A stretch of DNA of 64,000 bases from Micromonospora parathelypteridis (GTDB lineage Bacteria > Actinomycetota > Actinomycetes > Mycobacteriales > Micromonosporaceae): positions 6,944,001 through 7,008,000 of the forward strand of contig NZ_JACHDP010000001.1 in the NCBI RefSeq assembly GCF_014201145.1, written 5' to 3'. Each line of letters starts with the position of its first letter. Within the stretch, counting starts at the first letter, position 1. This document shows positions 33,409 to 34,561 of the stretch, piece after piece. Under the pieces are notes generated by a model. The model was given only the letters and a program-made list of their open reading frames with translations, searched no databases and was not told the origin of the DNA. Made by a program: the position numbers and the translations under genes.

Positions 33409-33813
33409 TCATGACCCGCCCCGCTGCTCGACGAGCTCGGTGTCGACGTGCCCCAACTCGGGGCGGGGGGCGAGCGGGCCCAGGTGGAAGACCACCTCGG
33501 CTGGTTCGACGCCGGTGTTGCGCAGGCGGTGCCGCACGTTCACCGGTACGAACAGCGCCTCGCCGGCGGCCAGGAGCGTCGGCTCGTCGTCCAGGTCGAC
33601 GGTGATGGCGCCGCGCACCACGTACAGGAACTCCTCGCTGTAAGGGTGGTAGTGCTCGGCGATCCGCTCCCCCGGCGCGAGGGCGGCCACCCCGAGGAAG
33701 CCCGAGGTGCTGCCGACGGTGCGGGGGCCGAGCAGCACCCGCAGCTCACCACCGCGTCGCCGGTCGGCGGGTACGTCCCCGGCGGCGATCGGCCGCGTGC
33801 TCAGGTCACTCAT
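33409..33813 (-). CDS. Cupin-domain protein of the polyketide cluster
   Basis: A 134-residue single cupin. Motif 1 '[29 protein letters not shown]' has H-x-H and the Glu metal ligands; motif 2 '[16 protein letters not shown]' supplies the last His. Cupins of this type are found beside KSalpha in whiE-like and pentangular-polyphenol clusters, where they assist cyclisation or oxygenation of the nascent aromatic polyketide. ATG 33813 overlaps the end of the ACP-aromatase gene by 8 nt (ATGAGTGA), supporting this start over one eight codons earlier. Metal and exact reaction unknown. Confidence 0.88.
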
Positions 33814-34561
33814 CGCCGGCCTCCGTCGGCTCGTCACCGGCCGCCGAAGCGTCCTCGTCGGCGCGCTGCCGGGCGATCCGCTCCACCCGGTCCTTGATCA
33901 CCGAGAGTTGGATGGCGCTGTTGGTGTTGATCCGCTCGGTCATCGCGGCGTTGTCGACCGGCGCGGTCGGCTTCATCGCGAAGTCCTGCGTCCAGGTCAT
34001 CCGGGTGCCGCCGGCCTCCTCGGCGTAACGCCAGTGGATTCGCATGTACTCGAACGGCCCGGTCTCCACCCGGTACGCCCGGACCTGCCTGCTCACCGGG
34101 TCGGCGGTGCGTTCGCTGACCCAGCTCCAGGCCACCCCGTTCTCGTCCGGGTACATGGTGAGGCGGAACCGCACGGTGTGCCCCTCGCGGTGCAGGATGT
34201 CCACCACGGCGTACTCGGTGAACAGCTCGGTCCAGTTCGCCACGTCATTGGTGACCTCCCAGACCAGCGCCAGCGGCGCGTCGATGACCACGCCGTTCTC
34301 GGTGTGCCCGGGCGGATCGACGCGCCGGTTGACCAGGTCTGCCACCGCCGGGATGCTCAGCTGCCCGGCCTGCTCGGGGATGCTCACCTTCCATCGGTCG
34401 GCGACGACCGCGGACAACTCCAGCAGGGCGAGTGAGTCCATGCCCAACTCTTCCAGCGACGCGGCGGGCGCCTGGGCCGCCGCGTCGGCGTCCAGCCCGC
34501 AGTGCGCCACCAGGATGTCGGTGATCTCGGCGGTCATCGGGCGACCATGAGTGACGGTCAT
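33806..34561 (-). CDS. Acyl carrier protein fused to polyketide aromatase/cyclase
   Basis: A 251-residue single reading frame joins two proteins usually encoded separately. Residues 9-~80 are an ACP ('[22 protein letters not shown]', '[19 protein letters not shown]') with phosphopantetheine Ser43 in GMDSL. Residues ~86-235 are an SRPBCC/START aromatase ('[39 protein letters not shown]', '[21 protein letters not shown]', '[28 protein letters not shown]'), which dehydrates and aromatises the first ring. The linker is only about five residues ([12 protein letters not shown]), as if the ACP stop and aromatase start had been lost. ATG 34561 has AGGAGG 5 nt upstream and overlaps the biotin-carboxylase stop (ATGA). 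The fused order matches the whiE order ACP-ARO/CYC. Confidence 0.93.

Follow-up and report, generated by a model that had tools for sequence, protein, structure and literature searches.

Is an acyl carrier protein (ACP) that shares one gene with an aromatase/cyclase (ARO) still the working carrier of a type II polyketide synthase (PKS)? The question is raised by a locus of Micromonospora parathelypteridis, studied here in a 64,000-nucleotide stretch of contig NZ_JACHDP010000001.1 (hereafter the window), in which a minus-strand gene encodes both proteins as a single chain. We found this fusion to be conserved across the genus group and beyond, with both catalytic residues intact, and it is probably a working ACP-ARO didomain carrier, the chain on which would be extended by a separate ketosynthase (KS) and chain-length factor (CLF) and then handed to the attached ARO. 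The gene and its parts are:

33806..34561, minus strand: ACP-ARO fusion gene, 251 codons plus stop in one uninterrupted frame
34325..34540, minus strand: ACP domain, residues about 8-79
34310..34324, minus strand: junction RVDPP, residues 80-84
33836..34309, minus strand: ARO domain of the SRPBCC helix-grip type, residues 85-242

The gene starts with an ATG at 34561, with the sequence AGGAGG lying 5 bases 5' of it, and ends with a TGA at 33808-33806 that overlaps the start of a cupin gene (ATGAGTGA). A sequence-only reading of the locus had claimed a single 251-codon frame with an ACP (Ser43 in GMDSL) and an SRPBCC aromatase, and frame reading, Pfam and an AlphaFold2 model (mean predicted local distance difference test score, pLDDT, 92.4; predicted template-modelling score, pTM, 0.75) all agreed with it. 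Pfam PP-binding matched residues 15-64 (22.9 bits; cut-off 20.8) and Polyketide_cyc residues 93-208 (59.2 bits; cut-off 23.4). By Pfam, alignment and model, the ACP half is a four-helix bundle (helices at residues 9-21, 43-57, 63-67 and 70-81) with the phosphopantetheine Ser43 (codon at 34433-34435) at the start of helix II, as expected of a type II PKS ACP, although it is not the free-standing carrier that such ACPs are. The linker, first put at five or so residues, was indeed found to be very short: in the model, helix IV of the ACP ends at residue 81 and strand 1 of the ARO begins at 85, leaving about 3 residues (82-84) outside secondary structure.

The ARO half has the helix-grip SRPBCC fold of the mono-domain C9-C14 aromatase/cyclases TcmN and WhiE, and its R151 aligns with TcmN R69. 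A fold search (VIA-align) with the fusion protein returned ARO-like folds only among the matches listed, the ARO domain filling the list. The protein contains one SRPBCC domain, and not the two of the di-domain ARO/CYC enzymes BexL and StfQ. The ARO half is a WhiE/TcmN-type aromatase/cyclase, with a predicted C9-C14 regiospecificity.

Both halves are conserved. Among 121 aligned sequences (the query and the best 120 of 2369 matches), Ser43 and R151 were each invariant (121/121). When pairs drawn from 82 loci of equal spacing were pooled, the ratio of nonsynonymous to synonymous substitution rates (dN/dS) was lowest in the ACP (0.16), intermediate in the ARO (0.32) and highest in the eight junction codons (0.66). 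The distance from the active Ser to the ARO motif GHTEN ranged from 41 to 107 codons without a stop in the fused loci (42 codons in 73 of 109), while in 73 unfused loci the ACP-ARO spacing fell in all three frames. The invariance of Ser43, the dN/dS values and the stop-free spacing therefore indicate that both domains are kept as probable working enzymes in one chain, with a loosely constrained linker. The same data bear on the proposal that the ACP half is vestigial, or a mere docking module, while another cellular carrier serves the KS-CLF pair. The genome does have further short PP-binding frames that would suit such a scheme; however, it is made extremely unlikely by the invariant Ser43, by an ACP dN/dS below that of the ARO and by the fused ACP being the only one in the window, where we detected no second ACP in the 64 kb.

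It is also very unlikely that the fused frame yields two proteins, through internal initiation or cleavage at the junction. A GTG 12 codons before GHTEN, present in 54 of the 109 fused loci, could in principle start a separate ARO, but a ribosome-binding-like sequence preceded it in 0 of the 54. No in-frame ATG was found near the junction in the 109 fused loci, and a start codon with a ribosome-binding-like sequence was found there in 8. The domains, moreover, nearly abut in the AlphaFold2 model. An internal start for a separate ARO was rejected, given that the junction holds no ATG and that the common GTG has no Shine-Dalgarno-like sequence.

We then asked how widely the fused gene is shared. 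Across 300 genomes of the family, drawn from 44 genera, all but one of the 106 genomes in the window's genus group (Salinispora included) proved to carry it. Outside the genus group it was seen in at least 21 genomes, spread over seven other genera of the family, a minimum since many ARO matches there were not fetched. For 101 of the 105 fused genomes, a single alignment ran from residue 1 or 2, and the other four, with longer linkers, were established by direct reading (L041-L044). Of the 101 alignments, 17 crossed a stop, which on reading turned out to sit at the C-terminal end in every case. The sole exception in the genus group, G247, lacked any ACP-ARO match, and its ketosynthases were no closer than 40%. 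Named fused loci came from six Salinispora species and many Micromonospora species. Loci L002-L029, from other genomes, have the same fused frame at 88-95% identity, and the genome that contains the window is a single contig of 7.01 Mb. An assembly error, which would have undone the claim of a fusion, is ruled out by these observations, as is a read-through peculiar to this strain.

The gene order on the minus strand is AccD-AccA, AccB, AccC, ACP-ARO, cupin, KS, CLF, ABM-domain protein (the acc order). It is not the whiE-type order that had been suggested; the other common arrangement among the loci compared, cupin-KS-CLF-ACP-ARO, is the one that we take to be the order of the whiE spore-pigment cluster. 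By a profile search, 126 of 227 ARO loci were fused, the ACP and ARO matches sharing a stop-free frame; in 96 a separate ACP ended within 600 bases upstream, and in 5 (L078, L102, L112, L138 and L206) there was no ACP within that distance. Loci are not distinct genomes here, some genomes having been reached by two routes (e.g., L030, L053 and L156). In Asanoa, Rhizocola, Frankia, Geodermatophilus and Amycolatopsis, the ACP and the ARO each have their own gene, with cupin, KS and CLF after them, and among the loci read, the fused acc-order lineage had no member outside the family.

Phylogenetic trees showed that this lineage, the largest fused one seen and the one to which the window's gene belongs, has one origin. 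In a quick tree of ARO and KS from 109 loci, which excluded L085, L115, L118 and loci whose KS or ARO was only a short piece (four short genus loci were retained), 34 fused acc-order loci formed one clade (Shimodaira-Hasegawa-like approximate likelihood-ratio support, SH-aLRT, 100), next to 36 unfused loci that share this gene order. In a careful tree built from 47 chosen loci, the 16 fused acc-order loci likewise formed one clade (support 100/98), with Streptomyces sp. NRRL F-6131 (L191) as the nearest unfused relative (89/81). In L191, the ACP stop lies one codon before the ARO ATG, with both genes in the same frame, and L086 has a similar arrangement, ACP and ARO in one frame with a single stop between them. 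The route proposed earlier, in which the ACP stop and the ARO start were lost, is a plausible one for the lineage's ancestor, because L191 carries just such an in-frame stop, but it does not hold as a local or recent event in this strain, the fusion being an old one of the acc order.

Of the 126 fused loci, 3 lie outside the main lineage. They are distinct ACP-ARO fusions and lie in clusters of the whiE order: Actinoplanes sp. N902-109 (L037, 8356-9099, minus strand), a Micromonosporaceae draft genome (L038, 8622-9332, minus strand; source 69% complete and in about 1080 contigs) and Actinomadura sp. DC4 (L192, around 10001-10690, plus strand). The Actinoplanes fusion has homologues that include two proteins from Nonomuraea and many from metagenomes. 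The 47-locus tree has 4 changes of state in total; L037, L038 and L192 need 3 changes, and well-supported branches force 2 of these. A tree of the ARO alone, from 54 chosen proteins, had a bootstrap that had not settled and two long rows; in it the 30 fused proteins needed 6 changes, 2 of them forced. A single group for the whiE-order fusions was unsupported by both trees, the latter being only roughly supported itself. As these fusions stand apart in the trees, the ACP-ARO fusion probably arose several times.

The fusion can also be read in another way, namely that both domains work but do so independently, the join only fixing their stoichiometry or being a near-neutral outcome of adjacent genes. 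Such an outcome would be favored by the recurrence of fusions, by the ACP often lying directly upstream of the ARO in unfused relatives (the 96 loci above), by L191 and L086, in which one stop separates the two within a shared frame, and by the loose constraint on linker length and sequence. Within the lineage, the linker ranges from about 3 to about 70 residues, so that the near-absent linker of the window's protein represents one end of the range, and this wide range argues against a strict geometry and leaves independent domains with about a quarter of the probability. Against them stand the lack of any reversal to split genes in the 105 fused genus-group genomes and the retention of the join in seven further genera.

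The genes around the fusion are:

36550..38343 (start not fixed), minus strand: carboxyltransferase AccD-AccA in a single frame
36020..36700 (start not fixed), minus strand: biotin carboxyl carrier protein AccB
34558..36042 (start not fixed), minus strand: biotin carboxylase AccC
33409..33813, minus strand: cupin, probable later cyclase, its start overlapping the fusion stop (ATGAGTGA)
32079..33353, minus strand: ketosynthase KS-alpha, active-site motif VSTGCTSG
30769..32037 (start not fixed), minus strand: chain-length factor (KS-beta), motif AEAAGG, no Gln
30449..30784 (start not fixed), minus strand: ABM-domain protein
38909..39877, plus strand: SARP-like regulator with a BTAD domain, divergent
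40248..41669, plus strand: flavin adenine dinucleotide (FAD)-dependent monooxygenase, divergent, beyond the cluster

A KS with its active-site Cys, a CLF and an ACP are thus encoded together, as in a type II minimal PKS. The KS and the carrier are separate proteins, and not parts of one polypeptide as in an iterative type I PKS. Judged from its gene content, the cluster would supply malonyl-coenzyme A, a minimal PKS and probable finishing enzymes. AccD and AccA themselves share one frame (36550-38343), with both NCBIfam models above cut-off. In the CLF of the window and its relatives, Ala, Ser, Thr or Gly takes the place of the Gln (EQAGGL) found in most other CLFs, a residue that matters for priming. 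Where the motif was readable, the Gln was missing in 49 of 49 acc-order loci and present in 16 of 19 others; 36 further loci had no readable motif. In one locus (L043, 10716-11977), the CLF of G237 is in two overlapping pieces in different frames, a possible frameshift.

For the working didomain carrier that we favor, the following route can be proposed. The ACP half would be pantetheinylated on Ser43 and charged with malonyl units, and the separate KS-CLF pair would extend the ACP-bound chain into a long poly-beta-ketone. The tethered ARO would then fold the chain and aromatize its first ring with WhiE/TcmN-like C9-C14 regiochemistry, and the cupin, the ABM protein and the FAD monooxygenase would complete an aromatic, probably spore-pigment-like, product. 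The tether would fix a 1:1 ratio of carrier to first-ring enzyme and keep their local concentration high. Several observations weigh against this route. With linkers of about 3 to about 70 residues, no precise geometry is conserved; clusters that are related and share the gene order have the ACP and ARO as separate proteins, so the fusion is not required; and five short PP-binding frames (84-126 amino acids, stop to stop) elsewhere in the genome could in principle serve the KS-CLF pair. No single rigid ACP-ARO geometry is kept, as the loose linker shows, and the direct hand-over and limited ACP shuttling put forward in the sequence-only reading are best kept as proposals.

A more far-reaching version, which we hold to be rather doubtful, is that the cluster is a partial assembly line in which the only carrier is tied to the aromatase. 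The first-ring enzyme would be at hand while the chain is being built, because the sole carrier cannot leave it; the ARO would help to set chain length and block unwanted folding, and selection for this would have produced the several independent fusions.

A literature search returned no description of an ACP-ARO fusion, which is weak evidence of absence given that most subscription papers were outside its reach. Names given to the best 120 of the 2369 homologues were SRPBCC family protein, aromatase, cyclase, polyketide cyclase, hypothetical protein and, once, carrier domain-containing protein; no printed name covers both halves, and the carrier is therefore easily missed in cluster annotation. 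Excerpts of one review present poor ACP-ARO/CYC interaction as a difficult problem for engineering and describe type II PKS proteins as separate mono- or didomain proteins that meet transiently (PMC12664062); another, likewise consulted in part, asks what sets fused carriers apart from stand-alone ones (PMC7949117). A covalent ACP-ARO pair that occurs in nature offers a ready-made system for the structure of this interface. The linkers of about 3 to about 70 residues, together with an unfused sister with one stop, are suited to testing the effect of the tether on chain length and folding, and the apparently repeated joining of carrier and first-ring enzyme eases the study of their hand-over.

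Some of the fused loci may already be known under another name. Salinispora pks3 and a conserved Salinispora type II PKS are both suggested, in excerpts of the papers concerned, to make spore pigment (PMC7888443, PMC12838356). The fused cluster occurs in six Salinispora species, and in S. mooreana it is followed by genes for an AMP-ligase, a KS and an AMP-ligase like those that the excerpts give for pks3, from which we infer that the fused Salinispora cluster is pks3 and the conserved type II PKS. By this analogy, and as far as the excerpts go, a spore-pigment-type product is suggested for the window's cluster as well. For this downstream KS, the window's genome contains no close counterpart, 40% being the best. 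A downstream module of this kind, with AMP-ligases and additional KS genes, follows the fused cluster in L146 (14374-20118) and similar loci, in many relatives together with a second ACP of the unusual motif GVDLESL. A second match to our home-made ACP profile occurred in 29 of 105 searched sequences; five of these were read, and all belong to a different type (GVDLESL). In S. mooreana the region of this match contains additional KS and ligase genes.

Compared with characterized proteins, the ARO half differs from WhiE ORFVI (SCO5315; PDB 3tvr, 3tl1 and 2kf2) of Streptomyces coelicolor, a stand-alone aromatase/cyclase, in continuing from the ACP without a start codon of its own, and from the TcmN ARO/CYC domain (PDB 2rer), which has no carrier domain and, going by the PDB molecule name, has a methyltransferase attached. 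The cluster shares KS, CLF, ACP, cupin and a TcmN-like ARO with whiE-order type II PKS clusters, but it is ordered acc-ACP/ARO-cupin-KS-CLF-ABM and not cupin-KS-CLF-ACP-ARO, and its carrier is fused to the ARO. BenH and SchA/CurD-like proteins, described as cyclase-ABM fusions in excerpts of PMC6689052, likewise place type II PKS accessory domains in one protein; as described there, however, they join a cyclase to an ABM domain and not to a carrier. The families of both parts are thus known, and what is new is their covalent union, its breadth and its apparent recurrence.
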